NCBI GenBank assembly: GCA_017464345.1
Contig: JAFUAH010000002.1
Location: forward strand, 1 to 39,648
Length of the DNA stretch: 39,648 bases
DNA from: Bacteroidaceae bacterium
Lineage (GTDB): Bacteria; Bacteroidota; Bacteroidia; Bacteroidales; Bacteroidaceae
Reading direction: 5' to 3'
Of this stretch, positions 3,020 to 35,237 are shown in pieces. A model generated the notes under the pieces. The model was given only the letters and a program-made list of their open reading frames with translations. It made no database searches and was not told where the DNA came from. Every line of letters begins with the position of its first letter. Position 1 is the stretch's first letter. The translations under genes and the position numbers were made by a program.

Positions 3020-3396
3020 TACCGTCTGCTGTTCTTTGCTTCGATACTCAGTGTTGCATGGGGGACAGCACGCAGGCGCTCCTTGGGAATGAGTTTGCCC
3101 GTTTCCCGACAGATGCCGTACGTCTTGTTGTCGATGCGCACGAGTGCTGCCTGCAGGCCCTGTATAAACTTTTGGCTGCGAGCGGCCAGCTGTATCAGCT
3201 GTGCCTTACTCTGCGCCTCGCTGCCCTCTTCCAGGGCATGGAACGTAGGCGACGTATCATCGACCCCGTTCTCGTTGCCCTTGGACAGTTCGTCCATCAC
3301 TTTCTTATAGTCGCGTTTCGTCAGTTCCAGCTTCTCCAGAATAATCGCACGGAACTCCTCCAGTTCCTCGTCACTGTAACGTATTTTCTCTTGCAT
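3019..3396 (-). CDS. TraR/DksA-family protein with degenerate zinc finger
   Basis: This 125-residue protein has the layout of DksA: an N-terminal and central coiled-coil region (about 8-85) and a C-terminal finger region with YGICRETGKLIPKERLRAVPHAT. DksA relatives bind RNA polymerase through the secondary channel and tune transcription. Only one of the four zinc cysteines remains (in GICRETG), so the finger probably folds without zinc; this variant is usual in Bacteroidetes. Start and stop overlap its neighbours by one nucleotide each (TAATG at both ends), placing it firmly between ileS and lspA in one operon. A regulatory role is family inference. Confidence 0.85.
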   Translation of the reverse strand: MQEKIRYSDEELEEFRAIILEKLELTKRDYKKVMDELSKGNENGVDDTSPTFHALEEGSEAQSKAQLIQLAARSQKFIQGLQAALVRIDNKTYGICRETGKLIPKERLRAVPHATLSIEAKNSRR

Positions 3397-6300
3397 TATC
3401 TCTTAATATTAATGTTCACTTTATAGTCCTCAAAGTCTAGCAATGTGGGCTCCTCCACTTTGTCCACGAGTGTGAGGCTGTTGGCCAGCACCTGTGCAGC
3501 AATGTAGTCGCCGAACTGAGCAACGGCCTTGTCGGTCTGTCCGTTGTGCTCCAACTGGATGTCGATGCGGTCAGTAATCTCGAAGCCACTCTCCTTGCGC
3601 AAATTCTGGATGCGCTTCACCAGCTCGCGTGCCACGCCCTCGTTCTTCAGGTCGTCGGTGACAGTGATGTCCAGTGCCACGGTCAGTGCGCCGTCGTTGG
3701 CTACGGTCCATCCAGGTATATCCTCGCTGTATATCTCGATGTCCTCGGCCTCCACCAATGCGGTCTCACCAGTCTCCAGACTCAGCTGGATGCTGCCCTG
3801 GGCTTCCAATTCCTTTATCTGCTCCTGGCTCATGGCCAGCACAGCGGCATTTACGCTCTTCATTAGCTTACCGAACTTCTTGCCCATAGTGCGAAAGTTG
3901 CACTTCACCTTCTTCACCAGTATGCCATCACCCTCCACAAAGTCGAGTCCCTTTACGTTCACTTCGTCCAGGATAAGTTGCTTCATGGCCTCGATGCGCT
4001 GTTGCTGGTCAGTATCGATGGCTGGGATGGCTATCTTTTGCAAAGGCTGACGCACAATAATCTGCTCTTTCTTGCGGAGCGAGAGCACCATGGAGGTAAT
4101 GCGCTGTGCCAATTCCATGCGCGTCTCCTGTTCTTTGTCTATCTTGCTGTCGTCTGCTACGGGGAAGTGGCTCAGATGTACGCTCTGTGTATCACGCCCG
4201 CTGGCTTCCGTCAGGTCACGATAGAGGCGGTCGGCATAATAGGGAGCTATGGGGGCCATCAGTTTGGCCACGGTCTCCAGACAGGTGTAGAGGGTCTGGT
4301 AGGCCGAAAGTTTATCAATACTCATGGCCGAACCCCAGAAACGCTTACGCGAGAGGCGGACAAACCAGTTCGAGACATTATCAACCACGAACGACTGAAT
4401 CAGTCGGCCAGCACGTGTGGGCTCGTATTCCTCGTAGCAGTCGGTCACCTCACGGATGAGGGAGTTCAGTTCCGAGAGTATCCAGCGGTCCATCTCCGGA
4501 CGCTGTGCCATGGGCACGTCGGCTTCCTCATAGTGCCATCCGTCCACGTTGGCATACATCGTTAGGAACGAATAAGTCTGGAACAACTTGCCAAAGAACG
4601 AACGGGTAACTTCCCGTACACCCTCTTCATCAAACTTCAGGTTGTCCCAAGGCTGGGAGTTGGTAATCATGTACCAGCGCACGGCATCCGAACCATAGTT
4701 CTCAATAGCCTTGAACGGGTCTACGGCGTTGCCCAGGCGCTTGGACATCTTCAGCCCGTTCTTGTCCAGCACGAGACCATTGGAGATAACGGTCTTGTAG
4801 GCCACGGAGTCGAACACCATCGTAGCAATGGCATGGAGCGTGAAGAACCAGCCGCGCGTCTGATCAACACCTTCGGCGATGAAGTCGGCAGGGAAAGCCT
4901 GCGGCAATAGTGAAGAGTGAAGAGTGAAGAGTGAAGAATCAGAAATACCATCAGACTGAAGTGTATCCTCTAAATTGTTACTTTTATTCTTCACTCTTAG
5001 TTCTTCACTCTCCACTCCCTCAAAGGGAAAATGCACCTGTGCATACGGCATGGCGCCCGAGTCGAACCACACGTCTATGAGGTCCAGTTCGCGCTTCAGC
5101 ACGGCACCGCTCTCGCCCACGAGCCATATCTGATCGACATAGGGGCGATGGAGGTCTATGCGGTCGTAGTTTTCCTGCGACATGTCGCCGGGCACGAAGC
5201 CACGCTCCTTCAGCGGATTGCTGGGCATGATGCCAGCCACGACGGCCTTTTCTATCTCCATGTACAGTTCCTCCACGGAGCCGATACAGATTTCTTCCTT
5301 CGTTTCGCGGTTACGCCAGATGGGCAAGGGCGTACCCCAATAGCGCGAACGGGAGAGGTTCCAGTCGTTCAGGTTCTCCAGCCACTTGCCGAAGCGTCCC
5401 GTCCCTGTTGATTCTGGTTTCCAGTTGATGGTCTTGTTGAGTTCCATCATGCGCTCCTTGGCAGCCGTTGAGCGGATGAACCATGAGTCGAGTGGATAGT
5501 ACAGGACAGGCTTGTCGGTGCGCCAGCAGTGGGGATAATTATGCACGTGCTTCTCTATCTTGAAGGCCGAACCCTCCTGCTTCATCTCCATGCAAAGGAC
5601 GATGTTCAGGTCTTCGGTCTTCGCAAGAGCCTTCTCGTCCAGTCCGGCATACTTGGGATCGTAAGCGTTCTTCACATAGTCGCCAGCGTGGTGCCAGTAG
5701 CTGTCGCGCACGCAGAGGCCGACGAAGGCCTCGTCCATGTCCTCACGGAGGAAGTACTTGCCCGTAAAATCGACCATGGGGCGCGTGTCGCCTGCCTTGT
5801 CTATCACGTAAAGACTGGGGATACCGGCATCCTTGGCCACCTTGGCATCGTCGGCACCGAACGTGGGTGCTATGTGCACAATGCCCGTACCGTCCTCGGT
5901 GGTAACGTAGTCACCGGGAATGACGCGGAAGGCCTCCTGTTCCTTATTGACCACCTGACCGTTCTCCAGAGCACAGGGCTTCACCCAGGGGAAGAGCTGT
6001 TCGTAGTGAAGGCCTACTAAGTCAGTCCCCTTGCAACGGCCCAACACCTCATACTCACCTTCTTTGAAATAGGCAACAAGACGGCTCTCTGCCATAACAT
6101 AGATGGCTTCTTCCTTAGAATAGGGGTTCTGGCCCTTCACGGCCACATAGTCTATCTTCGGCCCTACGCACAAAGCTGTATTCGAGGGCAGCGTCCAGGG
6201 TGTGGTGGTCCAAGCCAGGATGTAGACCGGAAGACCTAGACTCTCTAGATTATCTAGTCTATCTAGTCTATCCAGCACCCGGAACTGTGCCGTCACGGTC

Positions 6301-6923
6301 GTATCCTTCACGTCGCGGTAACATCCAGGCTGATTCAGTTCGTGGCTGGAGAGGCCCGTACCTGCAGCGGGCGAGTAGGGCTGGATGGTGTAGCCCTTAT
6401 AGAGTAGGCCCTTCTGGTAGAGTTGCTTTAGGAGCCACCAGAGGCTCTCGATGTACTTGTTGTCATAGGTGATGTAGGGATGTTCCATATCCACCCAGTA
6501 GCCCATGCGGTGACTCAAGTCTTCCCACTCGCTGGTGAACATCATCACGTTCTGGCGACACTTCAGGTTATAGTCCTCGATGCTGATGGTACGACCGATG
6601 TCCTCCTTGGTGATGCCGAGTTCCTTCTCCACACCCAGTTCCACGGGTAGGCCGTGGGTGTCCCATCCGGCCTTGCGGTTCACCTGGTAACCCTTCATGG
6701 TCTTGAAGCGACAGAAGGTGTCCTTGATGCTTCGGGCCAGCACATGATGGATGCCTGGGTGACCGTTGGCCGACGGGGGGCCTTCGAAGAAGACGAACGA
6801 GGGACAGCCCTCGCGTTCCGATATGCTACGGTGGAAGAGGTCTTCCTCGTCCCACTGACTGAGCACCTCCTTGTTCACCTCCGAGAGGTTGAGGCGTGTA
6901 CGCTCTGCGAATTTCTTTGTCAT
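3396..6923 (-). CDS. ileS: Isoleucyl-tRNA synthetase
   Basis: Class Ia enzyme that charges tRNA-Ile in the cytosol. The HIGH-type motif lies in GHPGIHH (residues 54-60), the WTTTPWTLPSN editing-domain motif is just after residue 235, FIAEGVDQTRGW is near 680, and KMSKR is at 725-729. The C-terminal anticodon-binding region ends VNINIKR. At 1175 residues it is slightly longer than usual. Two extra low-complexity segments explain this: residues about 217-231 (DRLDRLDNLESLG) at the start of the editing domain, and residues about 634-672 (containing SSLFTLHSSLL) just before FPADFIAEGVDQTRGW. Both are encoded by degenerate DNA repeats and stay in frame. The start at 6923 is about 60 nt below a clear promoter at 6983-7013. 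It is the first gene of the operon. Confidence 0.97.
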   Translation of the reverse strand: MTKKFAERTRLNLSEVNKEVLSQWDEEDLFHRSISEREGCPSFVFFEGPPSANGHPGIHHVLARSIKDTFCRFKTMKGYQVNRKAGWDTHGLPVELGVEKELGITKEDIGRTISIEDYNLKCRQNVMMFTSEWEDLSHRMGYWVDMEHPYITYDNKYIESLWWLLKQLYQKGLLYKGYTIQPYSPAAGTGLSSHELNQPGCYRDVKDTTVTAQFRVLDRLDRLDNLESLGLPVYILAWTTTPWTLPSNTALCVGPKIDYVAVKGQNPYSKEEAIYVMAESRLVAYFKEGEYEVLGRCKGTDLVGLHYEQLFPWVKPCALENGQVVNKEQEAFRVIPGDYVTTEDGTGIVHIAPTFGADDAKVAKDAGIPSLYVIDKAGDTRPMVDFTGKYFLREDMDEAFVGLCVRDSYWHHAGDYVKNAYDPKYAGLDEKALAKTEDLNIVLCMEMKQEGSAFKIEKHVHNYPHCWRTDKPVLYYPLDSWFIRSTAAKERMMELNKTINWKPESTGTGRFGKWLENLNDWNLSRSRYWGTPLPIWRNRETKEEICIGSVEELYMEIEKAVVAGIMPSNPLKERGFVPGDMSQENYDRIDLHRPYVDQIWLVGESGAVLKRELDLIDVWFDSGAMPYAQVHFPFEGVESEELRVKNKSNNLEDTLQSDGISDSSLFTLHSSLLPQAFPADFIAEGVDQTRGWFFTLHAIATMVFDSVAYKTVISNGLVLDKNGLKMSKRLGNAVDPFKAIENYGSDAVRWYMITNSQPWDNLKFDEEGVREVTRSFFGKLFQTYSFLTMYANVDGWHYEEADVPMAQRPEMDRWILSELNSLIREVTDCYEEYEPTRAGRLIQSFVVDNVSNWFVRLSRKRFWGSAMSIDKLSAYQTLYTCLETVAKLMAPIAPYYADRLYRDLTEASGRDTQSVHLSHFPVADDSKIDKEQETRMELAQRITSMVLSLRKKEQIIVRQPLQKIAIPAIDTDQQQRIEAMKQLILDEVNVKGLDFVEGDGILVKKVKCNFRTMGKKFGKLMKSVNAAVLAMSQEQIKELEAQGSIQLSLETGETALVEAEDIEIYSEDIPGWTVANDGALTVALDITVTDDLKNEGVARELVKRIQNLRKESGFEITDRIDIQLEHNGQTDKAVAQFGDYIAAQVLANSLTLVDKVEEPTLLDFEDYKVNINIKR
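4909..5016. repeat. In-frame inverted/tandem repeat insertion in ileS
   Basis: The left part (4909-4938) is four tandem copies of a GTGAAGA-type 8-nt unit. The right part (4987-5016) carries the complementary units TTCTTCACTCTTAG and TTCTTCACTC. The two parts can pair imperfectly over about 28 bp around a 48-nt middle. The block encodes about 36 residues of IleS (roughly 636-672) that are not expected in the family at this place. The reading frame is kept. Confidence 0.75.
6232..6275. repeat. In-frame 9-nt tandem repeat in ileS editing-domain entry
   Basis: On the minus strand, four degenerate copies of GATAGACTA lie in a row, with a palindromic centre CTAGATAATCTAG. They encode DRLDRLDNLESLG, replacing the linker that normally precedes the AWTTTPWTLPSN motif. 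The length is close to that of the normal linker, so the repeat may have replaced rather than extended it. Confidence 0.65.
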
Positions 6924-6980
6924 ATTGTGTTGTTTCGTTTTTTACTATACTATTATAAATTAATTACTACGTAATTGGCG

Positions 6981-7035
6981 TGCAAAGATACAAAATATCC
7001 GCGTAACGGCCAACGCCATACGCGGATATTTTGCA
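6981..7035. repeat. 55-bp palindromic promoter element, copy 1
   Basis: Perfect 15-bp inverted arms (6991-7005 and 7019-7033) surround a 13-nt loop and are flanked by TGCAAAGATA and TGCA. A second copy at 10444-10498 is identical except for one base in the loop. On the minus strand the element contains a full promoter aimed at ileS. The rest of the gap up to the next stop codon (7036-7115) shows nothing recognisable apart from weak dyad symmetry near 7085-7120. Confidence 0.8.
6983..7013 (-). promoter_or_regulatory. Promoter of the ileS operon
   Basis: On the minus strand: TTGG (7013-7010), 19 nt, then TATCTTTG (6990-6983), matching the Bacteroidetes sigma-ABfr pattern (TTTG or TTG, 19-21 nt, TAnnTTTG). 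The -33 box is in the loop and the spacer is one arm of the palindrome, so hairpin extrusion or a bound protein could affect promoter use. Confidence 0.7.
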
Positions 7036-7115
7036 TCCCTGCACGTATGCAAGTCACTATTTATTTCGCAATTCGCCAATTATGCGATGGGGCACAGTTG
7101 CTCCCTCCGCATCGT

Positions 7116-8015
7116 TCACTCTACGAGCCCTTTTTCCCTCAGCCATTTATCATAGTGGGCACAAGCCTCCTGTGCCAGGGCCGAAGAAGAGGCATCCAGA
7201 GCGGAAAGTCCCTCCACAAGCCGGACATAGGCGGGCAACGAGGCCAACGACATTGCAAATGCCATGTCACCCTCCGTGAGTATCGGGTGACACGCGTTCA
7301 GGGCCATGGCCTGGTAACTTTTCTCCATATATGTCCCCATTGAGGCGAGATGATGGTTGTAGTATACTCCTTGCTCCTTCAGCATCACCTCCCGTAGGAC
7401 AGCGGCATATGACACCATAAACTGTCCCTGAAAGGCATACGCCAGATCGGCCGTAGCATAGAACTGGGCGAACCGCTTCCGATAGGCCTTCTTGATGCCA
7501 GCCATGGGCTGCACGGGAGTGGGCGCGGGAGCCAGTCCGGGATTAGCCGTCCAGAGTTCACGGAACATGATGAAACGGGAAATCGCACTAAAATATTGTA
7601 AAGTATAGTTGCCAGAGAAAATCGTGTCCATGTGCTCCACGAACGACTGGCCCTGCGGCGACCTCAGGCTGTCAGCCAGCTGCCGCAACTCCTCTGCTGC
7701 CACTACGGGCTCGAGCAACGGGCGCAATCCGAAAGACAGAAAGTCCCGGATGTAGGCCTCCTCCATATAGGCATCCAAGGTGTACTTGAGGGCTATGCCG
7801 CCTTTGCGCTCCTCCTTTGCCAGCACTTTGCGTGCCTGGTCCTCGGCCAAGATGGTCTTCGCCCTCAGCGAGGATGTGAGGGGACTGGCATCGTAGAGAG
7901 CACGCAACGTCTCGAGATAGGCATCGCCCTCCTGGGCGGACACGGTGGCAACCATGCACAGCGAGCAAAACAAAGTGAGCAGGGCACGAAGCCTCATCTT
8001 ATCGTAATGTTTCAT
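7116..8015 (-). CDS. Secreted protein of unknown function, downstream of the C10 protease
   Basis: I do not recognise the family. The start is placed at the Met beginning MKHYDKMRLRALLTLF (8015), because it gives a standard signal peptide ending at TVSAQ; an upstream ATG at 8039 would overlap the preceding stop and add eight residues, and MRLRALL six residues further in is another option. The mature part (about 275 residues) is alpha-helical in character, with segments such as DAYLETLRALYDASPLTSS, FVEHMDTIFSGNYTLQYF, AYRKRFAQFYATADLAYAF and a helical tail ending KWLREKGLVE. It follows the C10 protease by 16 nt or overlaps it, so the two are co-expressed. In some C10 loci the next gene encodes a protease inhibitor, but nothing here proves that role. 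Confidence 0.7.
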   Translation of the reverse strand: MKHYDKMRLRALLTLFCSLCMVATVSAQEGDAYLETLRALYDASPLTSSLRAKTILAEDQARKVLAKEERKGGIALKYTLDAYMEEAYIRDFLSFGLRPLLEPVVAAEELRQLADSLRSPQGQSFVEHMDTIFSGNYTLQYFSAISRFIMFRELWTANPGLAPAPTPVQPMAGIKKAYRKRFAQFYATADLAYAFQGQFMVSYAAVLREVMLKEQGVYYNHHLASMGTYMEKSYQAMALNACHPILTEGDMAFAMSLASLPAYVRLVEGLSALDASSSALAQEACAHYDKWLREKGLVE

Positions 8016-8031
8016 TCTGCACGCCCCCCTT

Positions 8032-10143
8032 TCATTCATATCCCTTGGCCTTGAACGCCGGTGAACAATGATCGTTGATTTTCCCCTGGAACTGTATCCC
8101 CTTGGGTATCCACAGCTCCACCAGTGAGGGCATATAGTCGAACGGTGTACTGCCCAGTTCCTTGGTCTTGGCGGGAATCTTCAGCACCTGTATCGACTGG
8201 CATCCCGAGAAAGCATAGTTGTCGATGCGCTTGGTGCCCTCTGGCAGTATGACCTCACAGAGCGAGGAGCAATTGGCAAACATGTACATGCCGACCGTGT
8301 TGGCCTGGAGATTGTAGTGCGCCCAATATTTATTGTCGTCCGTGCGCGTATAGAATACGCCGTCTTGCTTGGTTCCGATGAAGGCCTTAAAGGTACTCCA
8401 CTGCTTTTCGTCCATCGTATCAAAATCGAAGGTCTTCACGTCTGTGTAGATATGGCCCAACCCCGTACCAGAAAACTCTCCGGACGTCTGTGTCCTCCAA
8501 TACTTCCCCCTAGCCCGGGAGACCAAATACTCCCCTTTGTCCTTTACTATTTTTGCCTTTGCCAGATTCAGGCGGCGCAGTGCCCCCCAGGGATAGCGGA
8601 CAAGGGAGTGAGCATCAGTTCCGCCCGCCATCTGACGCAGCAGGCGCACGTCGTCGCTGCCGATGGGGCCAACGATGGAGAGCGAGGTCAGACCCTGCTG
8701 TTCCTCTTCGGAAAGCAACGTCCGCAGCGTATTGGGTTTGGCTAGTGTAACCTCCTTAGTCATCTCGCTGCGACGCGGTTCCATGCCGTAGGCGATGGCA
8801 TCGACCATCTGGGTTCCGCTGCCGCCCTTCCCTATAGCCATCTGATAATATCCATTGCCGTATCCATGCCAACCGAGGTTGTAGTGGAAGAATCCCTCGT
8901 CATAACCGTCACAGACGAAGGCATGGCGACCGCGGGCAACGATGCAGGGGCGACAGCTGTCCAACTCGCTACGCAGCAGCTGGCAGACCTCCGTGGCATC
9001 GACATCCATCATCTGCTCCACGGCCAGTCGCCCGGAATACCTCAAGTTGTTGCACATGAGATGCTTCATATAAGTCAGATTCACACTTACGCTGTTTAAC
9101 GTAATGTCGGGGTCGGTGCAGAGCGAGAGCACGCCCAATGTTTGCGACAGATCGCCTGCAGCCTCGACATCTTCCTTGGCATAACGATCGCGGTATTCGT
9201 CCCAATGGGGGGTGAACTTCATGAACTTATAATTGAAGAGTTGGGATACTTCCGGCGACACGTACACGTCCGATTCGCCCTGCTCTGGCCAGGCATAGTG
9301 CTTCATCACCATAGCCAAAGCCAAAGGCACACAGCCGATGAGGATGCGCTGCTTGCCGACACGGGGACTGCGGACATTATAGGGAGCATTCTGGCCCCAG
9401 GACAGACGCCCAAGCATGGGAGACACAGAGCCCGTGCTGACGGGCACGGTCTGGGCGACAGGAGCGGCGTGCTTTATGGAGTCTATCTGCCGACCGTACA
9501 CCGAGAGCAGTACCTGCTGCACCGAGGTATCGACATCGTACATTGCACTCTCCAGACTATAGGCCAGGATGGGCTGCCGAAGGGCATCCCACACATCGGC
9601 ACGGGCCATCACGGCAAAGCAACCCTGACGGTTGTCACTGAACACAAGCACGTGATCGTCCGTCAGTTGCGCTGCGAGTGCCAGCGAATCGGCATTGGCT
9701 CCCTTGCGGAGCAACCAGTCGTGGGCCGCCGTCAGTTCACGCCCATACACGGGATGGGGGCGGACATGCACACGCCGTGTGTCCGATACTACCGTCTTCC
9801 CCCCGACACCGACAGACATCGTAGGTAACTCCACGTCGCCGGTCTGCGACGTGAGATAGTCCACCGTGGCCGTCATAGTCGAATAGGGGTGTGAGAGTTG
9901 TTGGTCGTAACGCACATGTTGCACGGCAAAGCCTCCCCGGGTCTCAGGAACATAGCCTGCATCCCATTGGGTGGCAGAGAGCGTATACGTCACGGTGAAG
10001 GTTTCCCCCTGCGTCACCGTGTCGGGTGCTTGGATGGTGAAACTCTTTACTGGCTTTGCCACAGCTCGTGTCTGGGCGACGACTCTAATGCTGCACATCA
10101 GCAGGAGAGTGGTAAGAAACAGAGTCATTTTTCTCTTGGTCAT
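8032..10143 (-). CDS. Secreted C10-family (streptopain-like) cysteine protease with BatD-like N-terminus and LRR_5 tail
   Basis: Signal peptide at 1-24 (TLFLTTLLLMCSIRVVAQ). Residues about 35-130 form a beta-rich domain (FTIQAPDTVTQGETFTVTYTL) resembling the first domain of BatD-type proteins. A propeptide-like segment follows (about 160-205, DNRQGCFAVMARADVW and PILAYS). The peptidase core has C271 in GCVPLALAMVMKHY, H407 in GRHAFVCDGYDE, N422 and W425 in FHYNLGWHGYGNGYY, the expected C10 catalytic set. The last 90 residues contain BspA-type LRR_5 repeats (EVILPEGTKRIDNYAFSGC and a second copy). No type IX sorting domain is seen, so export may stop at the periplasm or outer membrane. Relatives include streptopain and interpain, which degrade host proteins. 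The promoter is about 300 nt upstream at 10446-10476. Confidence 0.88.
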   Translation of the reverse strand: MTKRKMTLFLTTLLLMCSIRVVAQTRAVAKPVKSFTIQAPDTVTQGETFTVTYTLSATQWDAGYVPETRGGFAVQHVRYDQQLSHPYSTMTATVDYLTSQTGDVELPTMSVGVGGKTVVSDTRRVHVRPHPVYGRELTAAHDWLLRKGANADSLALAAQLTDDHVLVFSDNRQGCFAVMARADVWDALRQPILAYSLESAMYDVDTSVQQVLLSVYGRQIDSIKHAAPVAQTVPVSTGSVSPMLGRLSWGQNAPYNVRSPRVGKQRILIGCVPLALAMVMKHYAWPEQGESDVYVSPEVSQLFNYKFMKFTPHWDEYRDRYAKEDVEAAGDLSQTLGVLSLCTDPDITLNSVSVNLTYMKHLMCNNLRYSGRLAVEQMMDVDATEVCQLLRSELDSCRPCIVARGRHAFVCDGYDEGFFHYNLGWHGYGNGYYQMAIGKGGSGTQMVDAIAYGMEPRRSEMTKEVTLAKPNTLRTLLSEEEQQGLTSLSIVGPIGSDDVRLLRQMAGGTDAHSLVRYPWGALRRLNLAKAKIVKDKGEYLVSRARGKYWRTQTSGEFSGTGLGHIYTDVKTFDFDTMDEKQWSTFKAFIGTKQDGVFYTRTDDNKYWAHYNLQANTVGMYMFANCSSLCEVILPEGTKRIDNYAFSGCQSIQVLKIPAKTKELGSTPFDYMPSLVELWIPKGIQFQGKINDHCSPAFKAKGYE

Positions 10144-10443: not shown

Positions 10444-10498
10444 TGCAAAGATACAAAATATCCGCGTAATGGCCAACGCCATACGCGGATATTTTGCA
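10444..10498. repeat. 55-bp palindromic promoter element, copy 2
   Basis: Same element as at 6981-7035 with one base change in the loop (T for C at 10470). Arms at 10454-10468 and 10482-10496 pair perfectly over 15 bp. Orientation relative to the downstream minus-strand gene is the same as in copy 1. Confidence 0.8.
10446..10476 (-). promoter_or_regulatory. Promoter upstream of the C10 protease, inside the palindrome
   Basis: TTGG, 19 nt, TATCTTTG (10453-10446) on the minus strand, as in copy 1. It would give a leader of nearly 300 nt before the protease ATG. Confidence 0.6.
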
Positions 10499-10707: not shown

Positions 10708-11196
10708 TTAGGTCTCGGATTGTTCTATCAGAGCCACGGCGTAGGTCGAGATGCCCTCTTCACGACCTGTGAAGCCGAGCCATTCAGTGGTGGTGGCCTT
10801 GATGGATATGTCATCGACGGGAATCCGCATGACCTCGGCCAGACACTGCTGCATCCGGGGGATGTGGGGATTCAGTTTGGGGCGCTGGGCACAAATGGTG
10901 GCATCGATGTTGCCCACACGGTAGCCTTTCGTGGCAATGAGTTCAACGGTCTTTCGCAGGAGTATCTTGCTGTCGATGTTGTGGAACTCGCCCCTCGTGT
11001 CAGGGAAGTGGTAGCCAATGTCGCGCATGTTGGCGGCTCCGAGCAGAGCATCGCAGATGGCATGTATCAGCACGTCGGCATCCGAGTGGCCCAGCAGACC
11101 GAAAGTGTGCTCCACCTGAATGCCTCCCAGCCAAAGGTTGCGACCGGACACCAACTGGTGCACGTCATAGCCCATGCCCACTCTCACTCTGTTCAT
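10708..11196 (-). CDS. ispF: 2-C-methyl-D-erythritol 2,4-cyclodiphosphate synthase
   Basis: Fifth enzyme of the non-mevalonate isoprenoid pathway; it cyclises CDP-methylerythritol 2-phosphate to MEcPP with release of CMP in the cytosol. The metal ligands D11 and H13 (GYDVHQL) and H45 (LIHA) are present, as are LLGHSDADV, AANMRDIGYHFPDT, and KATTTEWLGFTGREEGI near the end. The length of 162 matches the family. The start overlaps the porV stop as ATGA, so an essential housekeeping gene is translationally coupled to a secretion gene. Confidence 0.97.
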   Translation of the reverse strand: MNRVRVGMGYDVHQLVSGRNLWLGGIQVEHTFGLLGHSDADVLIHAICDALLGAANMRDIGYHFPDTRGEFHNIDSKILLRKTVELIATKGYRVGNIDATICAQRPKLNPHIPRMQQCLAEVMRIPVDDISIKATTTEWLGFTGREEGISTYAVALIEQSET

Positions 11197-12374
11197 CTGC
11201 GTTTCTTTTTGCCAAAGAGGTCTTTCATGCCATCGAGATCGAACGAGAGCGAGAAACGCATCGTCTGGTCCAGGGGGTTGGTCTGCGCTGTAGAGAAGAC
11301 GTAAGCAGCATCGATGGCAAAGACACTCATCTTGAAGCCGGCACCAGCAGTCACATACTTACGGTTACCTTTGTTCTCGTGCTCGTGGTGATAACCGGCA
11401 CGCACCATAAAACGGTCGTTATAGTTGTACTCCAGACCCAGGCTCCACTGGATTTCCTGCATCTCCTCCTTGAAGCCGTTGGGAGCATCGTGCAGGCTCT
11501 TGAAGATACCCGAAATGGGGGACAGGTCGTAATACTCACGCTGAAGGCGATCGGTGTAGTCTTCGTCGGCTTCACCATCCAACTGCTTGGGATAAGTGGG
11601 CACAAGTAACTTGTTGGCATCAGCGGCCACACTGAGCCGGTTGTACTGATTGAAGGGGATAGTCATGTTACAGCCCAAACGGAAGTTGGTGGGGATGAAC
11701 TCCGAATTGTCATCGCCGCCATACGATATCTTAGAGCCAATATTGTTTATGTTCAGCCCCCAGGCGAAAGAGCACTCACGGTTGCCCATCATGAAGTAGC
11801 CGTTGCGGTACATGGCAATGTCGGCAGCAAAGGCTTTGCCAGCCTTGCTCTCTGCGGTGTAGTCATAAGTGATGTCAGAATAGATGAAACGCATGGCCAC
11901 GGCCATGGAGAATTTCTCACTGAGCATACGGCTGTAGGCCACATCAGCAGCCAGTTCATAGGGATTGATGGTCATGGCATCGTCACTCTGGTCAAGCATT
12001 ACCTCACCCAGGGAGAAGAAGCGCAGGCTAGCACTGAGGGCACTATAGTCACCTATGCGATAGAAGCCTGCGAGGTTAGCCAGATTGATGTCGTTCACCA
12101 ACTTACGCAACCATGGCGTGTACGAAGCACTGACACCGGCACGTGCTACATTGAAGGGATACTTGGCCGGATTCCAGTACTGAGAGTTTGCATCGGCCTC
12201 CGTGGCCACACCCAAGTCGCCCATGGAGCCGCCACGGGCATCGGGGGCTATGGCCAACGAAGTGACACTGTAGTTCACGGGATTGAACATGTTCTTCTTG
12301 TCCTGCGCCTTCAGCGTGGCGACACACGTCAGGAGCAACAACAAGCATATTCGATGATAATTATTCGTCCACAT
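11193..12374 (-). CDS. porV: Type IX secretion outer-membrane shuttle protein PorV (LptO)
   Basis: FadL-fold outer-membrane beta-barrel that receives type IX cargo from the translocon and hands it to the PorU sortase. The start at ATG 12374 (MWTNNYHRICLLLLLTC) is preferred over an upstream in-frame GTG at 12395; it gives a standard signal peptide ending LKAQ. The mature N-terminus VNYSVTSLAIAPDARGGSMGDLGVAT, followed by EADANSQYWNPAKY, is characteristic of PorV. Later segments include NPYELAADVAYSRMLSEKFS and barrel strands to the C-terminus (MRFSLSFDLDG) with a basic tail KKKRR. It directly follows porU and overlaps ispF. Confidence 0.93.
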   Translation of the reverse strand: MWTNNYHRICLLLLLTCVATLKAQDKKNMFNPVNYSVTSLAIAPDARGGSMGDLGVATEADANSQYWNPAKYPFNVARAGVSASYTPWLRKLVNDINLANLAGFYRIGDYSALSASLRFFSLGEVMLDQSDDAMTINPYELAADVAYSRMLSEKFSMAVAMRFIYSDITYDYTAESKAGKAFAADIAMYRNGYFMMGNRECSFAWGLNINNIGSKISYGGDDNSEFIPTNFRLGCNMTIPFNQYNRLSVAADANKLLVPTYPKQLDGEADEDYTDRLQREYYDLSPISGIFKSLHDAPNGFKEEMQEIQWSLGLEYNYNDRFMVRAGYHHEHENKGNRKYVTAGAGFKMSVFAIDAAYVFSTAQTNPLDQTMRFSLSFDLDGMKDLFGKKKRR

Positions 12375-12398
12375 ACAATTATAAAACGTCGGCACAGG

Positions 12399-15300
12399 CT
12401 AATTATTGCCATGAACAATAATTTTTTGTGCCTCGGACACCTTTTTACTGGTGCCACTTCGCATCGTGACGCGATAGAGATAGATACCAGCGCCCAGACG
12501 TCCGCCCCCACTCATGGTCAGATTCCAAGGCAAAACATAGATGCCCGTGGCTGTATTGACGACGCACGAATGGGACCACATGCGCTGGCCTGCAAAGTCA
12601 AAGACCTCCAGCAGCAAGTCGCAATCAGTGCCCGGCAAACTATAGTTTATCAGGAAATTGGTACCTGAAACGGCTGGATTCTGCGTAGCGGAGATGCCCA
12701 GCAGCGTGGGATTGAGGTCTGCATCGACCACAAAGTCCAGCGTGGCGGAGTTGGTATTGTTCAGCACATCCCAAGCACGGAACTTCAGCCGATGGGGCCC
12801 CTCTGGTAGTTCGGGGATGGAGTAGCCTACGGCTCCCTGGGTAAAATCGCCGAACTCGCTGGTATAGTAGTCATTGAGCACGTAGGTCGTATTGACATTG
12901 TCATCGATGGTCAGCAGGAGGTCATGGCCTAGGCCCGAACCGCTGTAGTTGATGCCACTCTCATCCTTCAGGAGAGCCACAAAGAAGGGTGTGGAATTCA
13001 CCGTGCCACCGTTCTCGAAGTCTTCGGTGTTCAGATAGGCATATATCTGTGGCCCCTCCTCGTCACTGTCGACCGTGGAGGTTATGTCGCCCACCGTGAA
13101 GCTCTCGTTATAGCCATTGGCCTCCATCGTGTGTTCGTTGTTCACAGCATAGAAGACTGCCCGTCCAGCCTCATTGCTGTAGTTGATATCAAGAGGCACG
13201 ACAAAGTCCAGGGAGAAACGACCGTCGGCTACAGAGTCTTGCCCGTTGAACAGGACATTATTGCGACTGGTAAAAGTGAAGGGCCCCTTCTTGGCATCGG
13301 CATTGTTCTTGCAAACTACGGTCTCCAGATTGTCATACACACGGGCCGTGAGAATGCCAGAAAAGGATCTCAGGCTATCGCCGTCGGCACCGACGATGTG
13401 CCCACTCATGTGGACACGCTGACCGGCCTGCAGTTGCATGTCGGCAGCCGAATCCACGGCCACGCCGTTGATGCTGTCCAAGACTACACGGTTGAGGGGG
13501 GCACCAAAGGTCAGGGCGGGGTCACCCAAGAGTGCATAGTGGAGTTTATTCTCGCGGTGCGAGGTCTCCAGCTTGCCGTCTATTAGATAATTCTTAGCCA
13601 GACGAATGGCATCCCCCACCCTATAGCGCCGGCCTAAGCTGTCAGTGGCCAACAGATAGTGCATGAACCAGCGGTTCATCTGTAGGTTACGGTCAGCATA
13701 GACCGTCCGCGCCGTGCCGTAGAAGGCCACAGCCGCACCACCCTCGTTCAGCATGGCAGTCTCACCGATATTATCATTCAGCCCGTCGAAGGGAGTCACA
13801 TCACACGCCGCCGTTATCCACAACGGGAGCCGGGAGCCCTTGTATCGGGCAAAGTCCGACAACTTCAGCACTTGTTCATGGGACAGACAGTAGTAAGCCC
13901 CGTGGCCCGTATAGTTGATAGCCAGGGCCCCCTCGTCCATCTGTTCCTGTATCAACTGTGTCACAGCGGGATAGGTGTTACCACTAAGGGTGCTCACCCG
14001 GGTATATGCATCCCACATCACCTTGCGCACCTCCATCTCTGGATTGTCCCGAATGATGCGCTCGGCCACGTCGTCGGCCATCTCCAGATGCTCGTTGTTG
14101 TCACCATCGTCGCCCATCACGCTAATGATGTTCTTCCAACTGCCAGCATAGGCATTGCTGAGGTGGTTGATGGTCTTGTCCACAACGACCTTAGCCTCGG
14201 CTGCTGATATTACGGGGAAGCGACCGACACCGATGTCCACCTTGTCGTCGGTCAGCCGGGCGCCTTCGCCGTCGTCCAGCAGACCGAAGTAGTCTTCCAT
14301 CACATAAGACTGCGTATCGCTGAAACTGTTTTCACTTTGGAAGCAGAGCAGATAGTTGTCGGGATTGTTCTTGCGCCAGGCGGTGGAAAGCATTCGGTTG
14401 TCCCATGCACAGTCGCCAAAGAGCAGGAGGTAACGAGGCAGATTGCCCTCGTCCTCGGCACGGTCATAGAGCATCTTCATCAGCCGGCGGTAGGCCGTGG
14501 CATCGGGAGTACCGCTGGAGAACTCATTGTATACCTGGTCGGCACGCACTACGACTACACGCAGTCCGTCATACTCTCGATGGGCTTCGGCCAAGCGCTC
14601 GGCCTGTTCCGCCAGGACATTACTGGTGGGGACGATTATGACCATGTCCAGACTGTCCAGACGGTGTAGGTTCTGATTCTCTATCTCACCAACCACCGTG
14701 GGCTGGGGAAAACTGAATGTGGGGTCAAAAGCTACATAGCGACGCGAGGCATCCTCCACAATCGCCCGATAGACATCACCGTCCTGAGTGCCCTGCACGA
14801 GACAGGCGGCACGTCCAGGTTCGCCTATGCACATCAGTTGCAAGCCCGAGCCCGTGATATTGAACTGTGAAGGCCCCGAAGTGTTCTGAGAGAAGGCAAC
14901 ATAGCCGTCGTGAGGCTTCAGTTGCCGGGCATAGTGCAGAGCCAGATAGTCAAGACGAGCAGGATTTCCGACCGTACTGGTCAGTTTGACAGTCCATTCG
15001 CTGCCGTTGCTCATGCTGCTGACATCCGACGTACGCACCGCCTGTGTGGCATAGATGTAGCTGCTCAGTTTGCTCATCGTCATCAATTCCAGTTCGTTTC
15101 CATTGACTTGCGGGGACAGTTGGGTTGCCGTACTTGCCGATGCAGTAAAGGCGATGGTCAGCAGTTCCTGGCCCATACTGTTCACTGTGGAGAGCCGATA
15201 GGTGTGCGTATTGCTGGTAGCATAATCGACGTTCTCATACAGATGGCGCCCACCATGGAACCATGCATATTCGTCCTTCTCGTATAGCACATGGTCGGTA

Positions 15301-16154
15301 AAACTGTCGTAGCCGCCAGTAAGATTAGTAGAGCCGTCCACCGTCTCTATTTGGCTGGGAGTGTCAGCTTCGGTCAGAAAATAATAGGCCTTAGTGGCGT
15401 ATGGATTGAAGACCCGTGTATTGCCGTTCCAGTAAACGAGCCCGTTGCCCCAGAAGAGCCACGTGTCGGGGTCGGCTTTATAGAGGGGAACTTCCTGCAA
15501 GTCGTCGTACTCGTTGTCAGGGTCTATGACCTCTGGCAACCGATAGCCACCATAACCATACAGGCGGACGTTGTCAGGATTTGAGAAGCCCATCTTCGAC
15601 AGGGCCGAACGCGTCAGCCGGTACATGCCGTCCTGCGTAATGCAAATCTTCACCCACCTGCCCTGAGCCAGTACGCTATTGTGCACATAGCGTTCGGCTG
15701 GCAGCACTGCCCGTGCCACCTTTCGAGCCTTGGGCGTAGAGGTGATGACGATACTGGCATTTAGCAGTTTCTGATACTTGCCATTCCGCCTTACAAGTGG
15801 AACAAAGGCAATGTCCAACATACCCTGCTTCCGACTGACAGAGAGCGAAGCCGAAACATTAAGTTCCTCGCCGATGAGCGGTACACCTGCTTGCCCTGAT
15901 GCAGAAAGGATGTGTTCCAGTCGGCGCACTTCCTCTGTTGTCAGAGGGGCCCACTCTGGATATTCCACCGATACACAGTAGTCAAACAGACGATAGTCTG
16001 TCTCCAGCGGTACGACCTCGGTATAAACTGGCAGCACACTATCAATGTGCAACTCTCCCCAGTCCAGTGTGGTAATGTGCTGTGCCGCAGCCCGATGAGC
16101 ACCCGCCCATAGGGGTAACAGTAGCATGAGCAATATGTAGAATCGTCTTTTCAT
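12399..16154 (-). CDS. porU: Type IX secretion sortase PorU (C25 family)
   Basis: Cell-surface gingipain-like cysteine peptidase that cleaves the C-terminal sorting domain of type IX cargo and attaches the cargo to A-LPS. Signal peptide at 1-24 (LLMLLLPLWAGAHRAAAQ). The C25 catalytic dyad is visible as H751 in INYTGHGAYYC and C784 in ITAACDVTPFDG. Upstream, VDIGVGRFPVISAAEA is typical of the family. The C-terminal end (RLGAGIYLYRVTMRSG) resembles a type IX sorting domain, which PorU itself carries. The length of 1251 is usual. The start overlaps the FAH gene stop (ATGA). Clustering with porV is common in Bacteroidetes. Confidence 0.95.
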   Translation of the reverse strand: MKRRFYILLMLLLPLWAGAHRAAAQHITTLDWGELHIDSVLPVYTEVVPLETDYRLFDYCVSVEYPEWAPLTTEEVRRLEHILSASGQAGVPLIGEELNVSASLSVSRKQGMLDIAFVPLVRRNGKYQKLLNASIVITSTPKARKVARAVLPAERYVHNSVLAQGRWVKICITQDGMYRLTRSALSKMGFSNPDNVRLYGYGGYRLPEVIDPDNEYDDLQEVPLYKADPDTWLFWGNGLVYWNGNTRVFNPYATKAYYFLTEADTPSQIETVDGSTNLTGGYDSFTDHVLYEKDEYAWFHGGRHLYENVDYATSNTHTYRLSTVNSMGQELLTIAFTASASTATQLSPQVNGNELELMTMSKLSSYIYATQAVRTSDVSSMSNGSEWTVKLTSTVGNPARLDYLALHYARQLKPHDGYVAFSQNTSGPSQFNITGSGLQLMCIGEPGRAACLVQGTQDGDVYRAIVEDASRRYVAFDPTFSFPQPTVVGEIENQNLHRLDSLDMVIIVPTSNVLAEQAERLAEAHREYDGLRVVVVRADQVYNEFSSGTPDATAYRRLMKMLYDRAEDEGNLPRYLLLFGDCAWDNRMLSTAWRKNNPDNYLLCFQSENSFSDTQSYVMEDYFGLLDDGEGARLTDDKVDIGVGRFPVISAAEAKVVVDKTINHLSNAYAGSWKNIISVMGDDGDNNEHLEMADDVAERIIRDNPEMEVRKVMWDAYTRVSTLSGNTYPAVTQLIQEQMDEGALAINYTGHGAYYCLSHEQVLKLSDFARYKGSRLPLWITAACDVTPFDGLNDNIGETAMLNEGGAAVAFYGTARTVYADRNLQMNRWFMHYLLATDSLGRRYRVGDAIRLAKNYLIDGKLETSHRENKLHYALLGDPALTFGAPLNRVVLDSINGVAVDSAADMQLQAGQRVHMSGHIVGADGDSLRSFSGILTARVYDNLETVVCKNNADAKKGPFTFTSRNNVLFNGQDSVADGRFSLDFVVPLDINYSNEAGRAVFYAVNNEHTMEANGYNESFTVGDITSTVDSDEEGPQIYAYLNTEDFENGGTVNSTPFFVALLKDESGINYSGSGLGHDLLLTIDDNVNTTYVLNDYYTSEFGDFTQGAVGYSIPELPEGPHRLKFRAWDVLNNTNSATLDFVVDADLNPTLLGISATQNPAVSGTNFLINYSLPGTDCDLLLEVFDFAGQRMWSHSCVVNTATGIYVLPWNLTMSGGGRLGAGIYLYRVTMRSGTSKKVSEAQKIIVHGNN

Positions 16155-16768
16155 CGTATGTTGAATTCCAATAGTTTCTTATCTTCCAAGTAGCCCACTA
16201 GATGATCCCCCTCCCTGACGGGGCCTACGCCAGCCGGGGTACCTGTGTAGATGAGGTCGCCCATCTTCAGGGTGAAGAAGCGACTGATGTAGGAGACTAT
16301 CTCGTCCACCCGGAACAGCATGTCTGCCGTATGTCCCACCTGCACTGTCTCACCATTCTTCTCCAGACGGAAGTGCAAGTCTTGCACGTCGGGCAGTTCC
16401 TCCTTCTTCACCATCTCTCCTACCACGGCACTGCCGTCGAAGCCCTTGCACAGTTCCCAAGGCAGCCCCTGCTCACGGAATCGACGCTGCAGGTCGCGTG
16501 CAGTGAAGTCGATACCCACCGTCACCTGGTCATAATAGCGGTGTGCCCACCGTGGGGCTATGCTACGCCCCAGCCGACAGATGCGCACCACCACCTCGGT
16601 CTCGTACTCACACTGCTGCGTGAAATTCGGCACAAAGAACGGCTTCCCTCCCGTGAGCAGCGCCGAGTCCGCCTTGGTGAAGATGACAGGCTCCTCTATA
16701 TGTAATAACGTACCAAGCAACTCTTTATTGTGCTTCTGGTAATTGAATCCAATGCCAAAAATCTTCAT
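16151..16768 (-). CDS. Fumarylacetoacetate hydrolase-family protein
   Basis: Small single-domain FAH protein (205 residues). Metal-binding residues are E56 and E58 in CEYETEVVVRI and D87 in GIDFTARDLQ. SLFT-like KADSALL, KGFDGSAVVG and IYTGTPAGVGPVREGD are all conserved signatures. Relatives act as acylpyruvases or oxaloacetate decarboxylases, or as isomerases of catechol degradation; the exact substrate cannot be told from sequence. It is the first gene of the operon with porU, porV and ispF. The promoter box ends only 8 nt before the ATG, so the transcript is nearly leaderless. Confidence 0.9.
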   Translation of the reverse strand: MKIFGIGFNYQKHNKELLGTLLHIEEPVIFTKADSALLTGGKPFFVPNFTQQCEYETEVVVRICRLGRSIAPRWAHRYYDQVTVGIDFTARDLQRRFREQGLPWELCKGFDGSAVVGEMVKKEELPDVQDLHFRLEKNGETVQVGHTADMLFRVDEIVSYISRFFTLKMGDLIYTGTPAGVGPVREGDHLVGYLEDKKLLEFNIR

Positions 16769-16776
16769 AACGACGA

Positions 16777-16816
16777 CAAAGATACAAAATATCTGCCAAA
16801 CGACAATAGCGGATAT
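16777..16816 (-). promoter_or_regulatory. Promoter of the FAH-porU-porV-ispF operon within a degenerate palindrome
   Basis: On the minus strand: TTG (16806-16804), 19 nt, TATCTTTG (16784-16777). The surrounding sequence CAAAATATCTGCC ... GCGGATAT (16785-16816) is a diverged version of the palindrome at 6981 and 10444, with the same CAAAATATC arm directly behind the -7 box and weaker pairing of about 8 bp. Confidence 0.65.
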
Positions 16817-16896
16817 AAAATATCCTTCGGGGATAATCTTTTATGGATAGATAACCTATAGATAAACCGAAACCCGTCTCAATTCGGAATTTATTG

Positions 16897-17545: not shown

Positions 17546-17573
17546 TCCTTGTCCGACAATTGTCGGACAAGGA
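17546..17573. repeat. Perfect 28-bp palindrome, first of a pair
   Basis: TCCTTGTCCGACAA is followed directly by its reverse complement, with no loop. A second copy with the same core starts 34 nt later. The two are separated by sequence containing CTTATGCT twice. No gene is present in 17379-17672. Confidence 0.9.
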
Positions 17574-17607: not shown

Positions 17608-17643
17608 GCTTTCCTTGTCCGACAATTGTCGGACAAGGAAAGC
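17608..17643. repeat. Perfect 36-bp palindrome, second of a pair
   Basis: GCTTTCCTTGTCCGACAA is followed directly by its reverse complement. The inner 28 bp are identical to the first copy. The arms CCTTGTC/GACAAGG recur in the 58-bp palindrome at 35180-35237, which has a different core. Confidence 0.9.
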
Positions 17644-20596: not shown

Positions 20597-20785
20597 TTTT
20601 TGTTTTTTGTTTTGTTCGTTACTACTTTTGGACGGTCACGGAGGGCCGCCCTTACTCCTTTAGGGACGAGTTTGGGGCTCGCCCCCACTTTTTGCTGCGA
20701 TTCACGAACCGTCCGTCCAGGCCAATGGTAACGGGCTATTCACACGCAGATTGGGCAGTATTTACCCTACCCTGATAATAATCGG
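20597..20785 (-). promoter_or_regulatory. Structured 5' leader of rplM
   Basis: On the minus strand the leader has a long-range stem GGACGG/CCGTCC closing the region about 20628-20720, with GC-rich hairpins inside (GGGG...CCCC near 20675-20690 and AGGGCGGCCCT near 20647-20657). The GC-rich, strongly paired part contrasts with the A-rich 35 nt before the ATG. An autoregulatory leader bound by L13 or S9 is plausible by analogy with other ribosomal operons, but no known motif is recognised. Confidence 0.5.
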
Positions 20786-34626: not shown

Positions 34627-35160
34627 ATGAAGAAGATTTTCATCGGCATCCTGGCCGGACTATTGCTCTCAGGATGCACCCAGAAGGAGAAAGCACAGGA
34701 GACGACCCAAGTCCCTGCAACTGAGGAGCAGACCGAAGTGGCTGCAGAGGGACAGATGGCTCCAGACTTCACGCTGAACGACCCCGAAGGCAAACCGCTC
34801 TCCCTGTCTTCACTGCGCGGGAAATACGTTGTGCTGGACTTTTGGGGAACATGGTGCAAATGGTGTGTGAAAGGCATTCCCGACATGAGGGCCTGCTACG
34901 AAAAGTATGAGGGCAAATTCGAGATGCTGAGCATCGACTTTGGCGATGACGAGGACACATGGCTCAAGGCTATCGACAGCTACAAGATGAACTGGAAACA
35001 CGTCATCACTGACGAAGAGAGCGCACAGGAACTTCAGACGCTCTACGCCATCGAAGGTTTCCCCACCAAGATTATCGTTAATCCCGAGGGAAAAATTGAC
35101 CACATCACCGTGGGTGAAGACCCTGCTTTCTACAAGTATATCGACGACTTGTTCGAGTAA
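34627..35160 (+). CDS. TlpA/ResA-like thioredoxin lipoprotein
   Basis: Periplasmic membrane-anchored thiol-disulfide protein. Lipobox LLLSGC (Cys17), an acidic linker (about 18-40), then the AhpC/TSA-like fold (APDFTLNDPEGKPLSLSSL). The redox motif is C77-K-W-C80 in FWGTWCKWC, with the cis-proline in EGFPTKIIV. Family members reduce cytochrome c apoproteins or other exported proteins; the partner here is not evident. The length of 177 is normal. It is the last gene before a 58-bp perfect palindrome. Confidence 0.9.
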   Translation: MKKIFIGILAGLLLSGCTQKEKAQETTQVPATEEQTEVAAEGQMAPDFTLNDPEGKPLSLSSLRGKYVVLDFWGTWCKWCVKGIPDMRACYEKYEGKFEMLSIDFGDDEDTWLKAIDSYKMNWKHVITDEESAQELQTLYAIEGFPTKIIVNPEGKIDHITVGEDPAFYKYIDDLFE

Positions 35161-35179: not shown

Positions 35180-35237
35180 ATCCTATACAGGTCAGCCTTG
35201 TCGCACAGCTGTGCGACAAGGCTGACCTGTATAGGAT
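35180..35237. repeat. Perfect 58-bp palindrome between convergent genes
   Basis: The 29 bases at 35180-35208 are followed with no loop by their exact reverse complement at 35209-35237. The centre is GCACAGCTGTGC and the inner arms are CCTTGTC/GACAAGG, as in the palindromes at 17546 and 17608, with outer arms ATCCTATACAGGTCAG. A smaller dyad AGACTCG/CGAGTCT follows at 35246-35261. It could act as a bidirectional terminator, but neither side has a T run. Confidence 0.92.

Follow-up and report, generated by a model that had tools for sequence, protein, structure and literature searches.

Bidirectional intrinsic terminators are symmetric hairpins behind a gene, built of an A-rich flank, a GC stem and a T-rich flank, and a periodic signal in place of the -35 box is said to have been described by Petersen in 2003 for Campylobacter jejuni. 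The text of a Bacteroides thetaiotaomicron map gives the primary-sigma (sigma-ABfr) promoter of Bacteroidota as a -7 TAnnTTTG and a -33 TTTG separated by an AT-rich spacer (PMC7366714). Helically phased A-tracts are described at bacterial promoters and, genome-wide in Synechocystis, in alignment with the -10 element and the transcription start site (PMC9825172), and BrickBuilt is presented as a miniature inverted-repeat transposable element (MITE) of Porphyromonas gingivalis that contains a 23-nt minisatellite and acts as a promoter in both directions (PMC4596501). The subject of the present analysis is a 55-bp palindrome at positions 6981-7035, minus strand, of contig JAFUAH010000002.1, where it stands in front of ileS, the gene for isoleucyl-tRNA synthetase. 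The window is the whole contig, 39,648 bp, of a metagenome-assembled genome (MAG) labelled G000, whose assembly measures 1.9 Mb and is 61% complete.

Throughout, G-numbers denote genomes and L-numbers the loci compared, genes are greedy picks of open reading frames (ORFs) made for the analysis, and all promoters are motif predictions, the work being based on sequence only. The explanation that we regard as probable for the whole is that the palindrome represents the gene's own ileS promoter, overlapped by a hairpin, that a second copy is a local duplicate, and that the promoter obeys a genus-wide rule of helical phasing.

Predicted promoter and hairpin in front of ileS

A repeat search of the window gives two copies of the palindrome, each 55 bp long and with one mismatch between them (54 of 55 bases identical), at 6981-7035 (copy 1) and 10444-10498 (copy 2), 3.4 kb apart. 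Both lie on the minus strand and read towards the minus-strand gene that they precede, ileS (3396-6923) for copy 1 and a C10 peptidase gene (8032-10143) for copy 2, in agreement with the sequence-only reading of this DNA from which the analysis started. The likeness of the full copies is far beyond chance, and their flanks are sharply different. The inverted repeat of copy 1 extends to 6979-7045 (minus strand), with 27-nt arms that are 89% complementary; its three DNA mismatches are all G-U pairs in the minus-strand RNA, the outer arm is paired in the RNA fold, and the sole difference between the copies, a U-G versus a U-A pair, falls within the inner stem. The stable GC-rich stem-loop typical of intrinsic terminators is found in both RNAs (copies 1 and 2 have z-scores of -9.9 and -6.7, respectively, with 0 of 300 shuffles as strong for either), and the copy 1 hairpin as DNA has a z-score of -9.3.

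A -7 box of the TAnnTTTG form, TATCTTTG, adjoins the right arm of the palindrome at 6983-6990 in copy 1, where close congeners have a similar box, and at 10446-10453 in copy 2, both on the minus strand. The -33 element GTTG, located in the hairpin loop of copy 1 (7011-7014, minus strand), is separated from the box by a 20-nt spacer; the 19 nt given earlier for this spacing reflects a different way of counting. Spacings of 19-21 nt are usual for the -33 element, and both copies fall within this range. GTTG occupies -24 to -21 in both copies and matches TTTG at three of four bases, the genus sample being T-rich and then G or T at these positions. Copies 1 and 2 resemble the sigma-ABfr promoter, as the text of PMC7366714 presents it, in carrying both elements with a 20-nt spacer. 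Two A/T tracts frame the hairpin in copy 1: TATTTT (6992-6997, minus strand) on the first rung, about -8, of the ladder of tracts discussed below, and AAAATAT (7026-7032, minus strand), within the left arm, on the rung at about -39, with the GC-rich hairpin in between.

Copy 1 combines a promoter motif and a hairpin in a position behind a co-directional gene. We propose that ileS has here its original promoter, one of the primary-sigma type of Bacteroidota, with TATCTTTG as -7 box, GTTG as -33 element and A/T rungs at -8 and -39, and that the stretch between these rungs has been filled by a GC-rich hairpin. In the transcript of the upstream gene, the hairpin would form a stem resembling an intrinsic terminator, with a U-rich end that runs into the -7 box, and a single 55-bp stretch would both end the previous gene and start ileS; promoter and termination activity are what we infer from this arrangement.

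Comparison with congeners is consistent with such an overlay. The N terminus of IleRS was located in 54 of 61 genomes and 30 loci were fetched, among which the gene upstream of ileS is co-directional in 25. The closest congeners have a recognisably similar -33/-7 half and different arms, and the G001 ileS promoter shows AAAAATCCCCGCGACT/AGTCACGGGGATTTTT in the same architecture, that is, a strong but different palindrome at the same position. Folding, which covered ten of the 30 ileS promoters, gave a strong hairpin at the box in three (G000, G001 and G006). The pattern is consistent with a conserved promoter whose overlapping hairpin changes rapidly.

Several observations weigh against this reading of the hairpin. 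Five of the ten folded ileS promoters (G025, G020, G061, G081 and G016) have no significant hairpin, and two more (G082 and G021) have only modest ones, away from the box. A terminator scan lists neither copy: the 13-nt loop exceeds the limit of the scan, and the T run in the segment that follows the stem, UUUUGUAUCUUU, is broken by a G. A hairpin abuts the -7 box in 5 of 100 co-directional promoters, copies 1 and 2 being among the five, and in 3 of 85 promoters of divergent genes; the direction of the neighbouring gene, which we had tried as a means of recognising terminators among such hairpins, therefore does not decide the matter. The hairpin does share with bidirectional intrinsic terminators the symmetric succession of A-rich flank, GC stem and T-rich flank behind a gene, but differs from them in overlapping the -33 and -7 elements of the next gene and in its interrupted T run. 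Further terminator-like hairpins of unrelated sequence, with their 3' end in or near a -7 box, were seen at L158 (upstream of 11721-12959), L159 (upstream of 8793) and L077 (the ileS locus of G006).

Copy number and the origin of the second copy

Two full copies were found in G000. A search with the pattern TGCAAAATATCCGCG at up to two mismatches gives nine places in this genome, four being the arms of the two copies, and BLAST with 131 bp gives 41 matches, of which four are the two copies and their reversed arms and the others are short and nearly all confined to the promoter half. Within the 61% of the genome that is assembled, these two are the only full copies. The full palindrome occurs in 0 of 60 relatives, where no match spans more than 44 of 63 bases; 17 of the 60 give matches at E<=0.01, the strongest at 1.3e-4, and most of these lie in the promoter half. 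The arm pattern ATATCCGC-N6-26-GCGGATAT is present in 2 of 61 genus genomes, the second being G021, with an unrelated loop. Outside the genus, the 13-bp arms were found in genome_contigs at four loci, in MAGs of Oscillospiraceae, Prevotellaceae, Lachnospiraceae and Bacteroidales. In these unrelated genomes the arms again form hairpins, and by eye no -7 box adjoins any of them; all except L141 are within ~80 nt of the end of an ORF, the arms of L139 standing between convergent ORFs and those of L140 ~33 nt after an ORF. A search of viral_contigs for the arms gave 0 loci, and the palindrome had no match in phages.

A third, worn copy had been reported in front of the FAH-porU-porV-ispF operon. 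The site concerned (16775-16829, minus strand, with its -7 box at 16777-16784) looks instead like an ordinary promoter. Its identity to the copies is 60% overall, with 14 of 33 bases matching upstream of the box. When 440 kb of G000 (the window and 20 further stretches) were scanned on both strands, coding sequence included, for TA[TC]NTTTG, 192 sites were obtained, and over the 33 bases upstream the identity to copy 1 was 33 and 32 for the copies themselves, 19 for the next best site and 14 for 16775-16829; 32 of the 192 sites reach at least 14 matches, namely the two copies, this site and 29 others. In addition, its fold is weak (z-score of -2.9, with 3 of 300 shuffles as strong), BLAST aligns only 26 bp of it, in the promoter half, and -24 to -21 read TATT. 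The site was rejected as a copy of the palindrome because 29 other sites match as well or better, the fold is weak and GTTG is absent. The description of a -7 box adjoining the arm with a TTG in the loop holds for copies 1 and 2, and once the third copy falls away there is no link between the secretion genes and ileS.

Copies 1 and 2 flank a pair of genes on the minus strand that lie between them, one for a 307-aa protein with no Pfam match (7116-8039) and one for a C10 peptidase with BspA-type leucine-rich repeats (8032-10143); ~300 bp separate the -7 box of copy 2 from the start codon of the C10 gene. A single distant relative of the 307-aa protein (26%) occurs in 1 of 80 other genus genomes and none on plasmids, and relatives of the C10 protein, at 38-51% identity, occur in 7 of the 80. 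Neither protein has a tblastn match in ten congener loci around ileS. Judged by this distribution, the block is lineage-specific, and since the copies flank it, the duplication probably came with its insertion, copy 2 being one local duplicate added when the block arrived. The hexamer CACGCC after the box is kept in copy 1 and in several congeners (for example G061, G081 and G069) and not in copy 2, for which reason copy 1 is the likely donor. A point against an inserted block is that its GC content is no different, and the block was accordingly rejected as a compositional island.

These data bear on three other accounts of the palindrome. MITEs and repetitive extragenic palindromic (REP)-like elements are recognised by multiple dispersed copies, and a mobile cassette of this kind, seeding promoters before genes as the sequence-only reading had envisaged, would account for copies identical at 54 of 55 positions between sharply different flanks and for the TGCA at both ends of the repeat. 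This TGCA lies inside the 55 bp, and by eye no direct repeat or target duplication is seen beyond the ends; with two full copies in the G000 assembly, none in the relatives, viral contigs or phages, and copy 1 seated on a promoter half common to congeners, such a cassette is highly improbable. The other proposal, an operator at which a repressor or activator would bind and co-regulate ileS and the protease, draws on the near-perfect dyad symmetry that two promoters show across their -33/-7 region. Regulon operators are conserved at orthologues or repeated at several promoters, whereas congeners do not keep the arms at ileS, no third site was found in the G000 assembly, and the only other genus genome with the arm pattern has a different loop, which makes this account very unlikely too. 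Copy number and lack of conservation thus lead us to reject both: the palindrome is neither a mobile cassette nor a regulon operator.

More weight attaches to an origin of the left arm by snap-back template switching (quasipalindrome perfection) off the promoter half, without a function of its own, although we still consider this unlikely. The left arm mirrors the right one through the -7 box and beyond (27 nt), which is more than a terminator needs, and the five folded ileS promoters without significant hairpin are as this account would have it. On the other hand, the deviations from perfect pairing are G-U compatible, and the strong hairpins of G001 and G006, with different arms at the same place, suggest repeated selection.

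Helical register of predicted promoters in the genus

The outer arm of copy 1 holds a degraded mirror of the -7 box, CATCCCTG (7034-7041, plus strand; three of eight bases differ from TATCTTTG), at a gap of 43 bp, and this prompted a search for intact mirror pairs. Among the 61 genus genomes, CAAAGATAC-N34-48-GTATCTTTG occurs at 41 places in 19, and CAAAGRTAC-N28-56-GTAYCTTTG at 167 places in 41, with 0 for the control in each case; the total lengths of the 75 listed of these 167 places are 47-49, 57-62 and 69-73, with none at 50-56 or 63-68. The gaps were then collected for divergent TAnnTTTG pairs in a discovery sample of contiguous stretches (1.39 Mb) and in a second sample of 0.80 Mb from six congeners, five of them new and the sixth, G020, represented by a contig other than its discovery locus. 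In the contiguous stretches, gaps cluster near 33, 43-44, 54, 63, 74-75, 84-85, 94-97 and 104-107 bp, a ladder with steps of ~10.5 bp. Expressed as the resultant length R at 10.5 bp, with nulls obtained by jittering gaps by +/-5 bp, the ladder is present in the discovery sample (n=103, R=0.53) and, with the same phase, in the second (n=50, R=0.50), each with 0 of 20,000 nulls; the gaps above 48 bp of the second sample give n=32 and R=0.47 (14 of 20,000 nulls). When one intergenic site was kept per flank cluster, R rose to 0.64 (n=79) and to 0.61 for gaps above 48 bp (n=46), with 0 of 20,000 nulls each. Dropped before these counts were pairs inside predicted ORFs (29 of 153, which themselves gave R=0.48) and later members of flank clusters (124 reduced to 79), and five edge sites were left out of the count of contexts. 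Convergent pairs form no ladder (n=33, R=0.07 and n=16, R=0.13), nor do the pooled control motifs (n=71, R=0.11), seven in number, one of which has no pairs; three others outside the pool are too few to use (n=4, 5 and 0). Taken singly, 8 of 10 genomes reach R of at least 0.41, and in 6 of 10 the value is matched by fewer than 5% of nulls.

The same period is written in the DNA upstream of single promoters. Across 205 predicted promoters from ten genomes, the frequency of four consecutive A/T bases peaks at about -8, -18, -29, -39, -50, -60, -71, -81 and -92 from the box, and the 133 that are partnerless, having no CAAAnnTA in 150 bp upstream, show the ladder as well (power 0.50 vs 0.23 for the null, 0 of 300 nulls). 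On- and off-rung A/T frequencies are 0.30 and 0.08 in G000, 0.24 and 0.11 in G016, 0.33 and 0.11 in G012 and G024 combined, and 0.30 and 0.08 in the second sample. Rungs accompany TA[TC]NTTTG (0.30 on, 0.09 off) and TA[AG]NTTTG (0.27 on, 0.09 off) and are missing from TG, TT and AT variants, control motifs altered at TA or TTTG having little or no ladder. The genus sample thus has A/T tracts that recur with the helical turn and keep step with the core promoter, and the AAA of a divergent partner lands on rungs -40, -50 and -60 for gaps of 33, 44 and 54.

The ladder of divergent gaps can be explained because promoters carry A/T tracts on matching rungs: two promoters that share upstream DNA would therefore share its phased tracts and one helical register. 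The palindrome follows this genus-wide rule, under which A/T tracts recur at ~10.5-bp intervals upstream of the -7 box and the spacing of divergent boxes fits these rungs. This probably comes about because RNA polymerase reads the phased A/T DNA through contacts of the C-terminal domain of its alpha subunit and through upstream wrapping. That the primary RNA polymerase of the genus depends on an A/T ladder reaching ~-90, which forces divergent promoters ~33-107 bp apart into one register, is a tentative proposal that in our judgement falls just short of probable. A rival account takes the ladder as a mere expression of the general ~10-11-bp A/T periodicity of bacterial genomes, which is in print (PMC4132750 and PMC9825172) and has nothing to do with promoters. 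In its favour, gaps on rungs are as frequent in other gene contexts as in divergent ones: 26 of 33 in tandem and convergent contexts lie within 2 bp of a rung, against 32 of 41 in divergent ones. The register is therefore not confined to divergent gene pairs as called. This account, though, would not leave convergent pairs and pooled controls without a ladder, nor restrict rungs to the intact motifs, and we hold it to be improbable.

The dependence of promoters on a common register has further points to answer. G023 (R 0.30) and G004 (R 0.35) show no gap ladder when taken alone. Homologous pairs across genomes keep their gap in 16 cases and differ in 27, and the differing gaps are not clearly whole turns apart: 13 come within 2 bp of this, a number also reached by 821 of 20,000 nulls, and the candidate signature was dropped. 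As for the palindrome itself, 36 of 191 boxes in G000 have as good a mirror word at a gap of 42-45, 143 of 191 have one with up to three mismatches at a gap of 25-56, and of the 28 ileS loci in which a box is present only that of G013 has an exact CAAAnnTA upstream, at gaps of 35 and 107; the palindrome as a one-sided relic of a divergent pair was set aside as weak, given how frequent chance mirror words are. The 79 deduplicated pairs comprise 41 in divergent, 17 and 12 in tandem and 4 in convergent contexts, with 5 at edges, while 117 of 511 intergenic gaps are divergent in the background. The window has a single divergent box pair, 16784/16897, and its gap of 112 does not fall on a rung. Outside the genus, the matches listed show no ladder in one set (n=58 after removal of one duplicate, R=0.12, 9073 of 20,000) or in a further one (n=16, R=0.34, 3076 of 20,000), both with likely coding matches among their rows. 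G139, from one other genus of the family, has an A/T ladder (17 promoters, 0.335 on and 0.109 off rungs) and seven listed divergent pairs with R=0.61 (1345 of 20,000 nulls).

Phased A-tracts at promoters are already known, and the apparently new part, which did not appear in the literature searched, is the divergent pair in register. The genus resembles Synechocystis and C. jejuni, as far as these are portrayed in the sources consulted, in having upstream A/T tracts that recur at intervals of about 10.5 bp and are phased with the core promoter, and differs in belonging to Bacteroidales, in its TTTG-like -33, in tracts extending to ~-92 and in divergent pairs on matching rungs. BrickBuilt, in the account given by PMC4596501, is likewise intergenic, promotes both ways and resides in a Bacteroidales genome, but is one copy family, whereas the genus pairs are alike in geometry and not in sequence, and varied 7-mers lie in many of them. 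Neither 'periodic' nor 'A-tract' appears as a word in the main text of PMC7366714, and its two 'divergent' passages concern antisense RNAs. Among open-licence papers, a literature search aimed at divergent promoters that share a helical register gave no such report, and titles and abstract openings of that literature mention no phased divergent promoters in Bacteroidota.

As a compact overlap of promoter and hairpin, the palindrome is of local interest, and the register rule would matter more. It would give a promoter signal readable from sequence alone in bacteria where promoters are difficult to predict, and to the cyanobacteria and Campylobacter, with their phased A-tract promoters, it would add a group that has a -33 element as well. 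It also offers a natural test of RNA polymerase as a reader of upstream DNA shape, since displacement by 5 bp should be harmful and displacement by 10 bp harmless. Many divergent pairs have a 42-46-bp gap filled by about four tandem 7-mers that vary from site to site (L179, L184, L176 and others; G016, G061 and G075); lag-7 identity is at least 0.6 in 10 of 23 deduplicated sites and in none at lags 5, 6, 8 or 9.

Neighbouring genes and other features of the window

The gene at 3396-6923 belongs to the Pfam class I synthetase families, and we take its exact name to be ileS; the other gene names are likewise presumed, with Pfam families as a guide. Upstream of the C10 block, the operon comprises, all on the minus strand, ispF (10708-11196), porV (11193-12395), a porU-like C25 gene (12399-16154) and a FAH-hydrolase gene (16151-16768). 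Within ileS, positions 4909-5016 encode a ~31-aa IleRS insertion and consist of 7-bp tandem repeats that together form an inverted repeat; at this point G001 and G027 carry other insertions, and the other 15 of the 18 among the rows listed carry none. No known RNA family reached the gathering score between 6900 and 10800, where up to E=5 there is one chance-level match, inside the C10 gene. Elsewhere in the window, an L13-Bacteroidia ribosomal protein leader lies at 20699-20772 (Rfam RF03127, 51.9 bits) and a 5S rRNA at the contig end (39563-39648). A perfect 58-bp loopless palindrome at 35180-35237, between genes at 34627-35160 (plus strand) and 35310-36146 (minus strand), is perhaps the terminator of these converging genes, and two identical 28-bp perfect palindromes, 38 bp apart, occupy intergenic DNA at 17546-17573 and 17612-17639.
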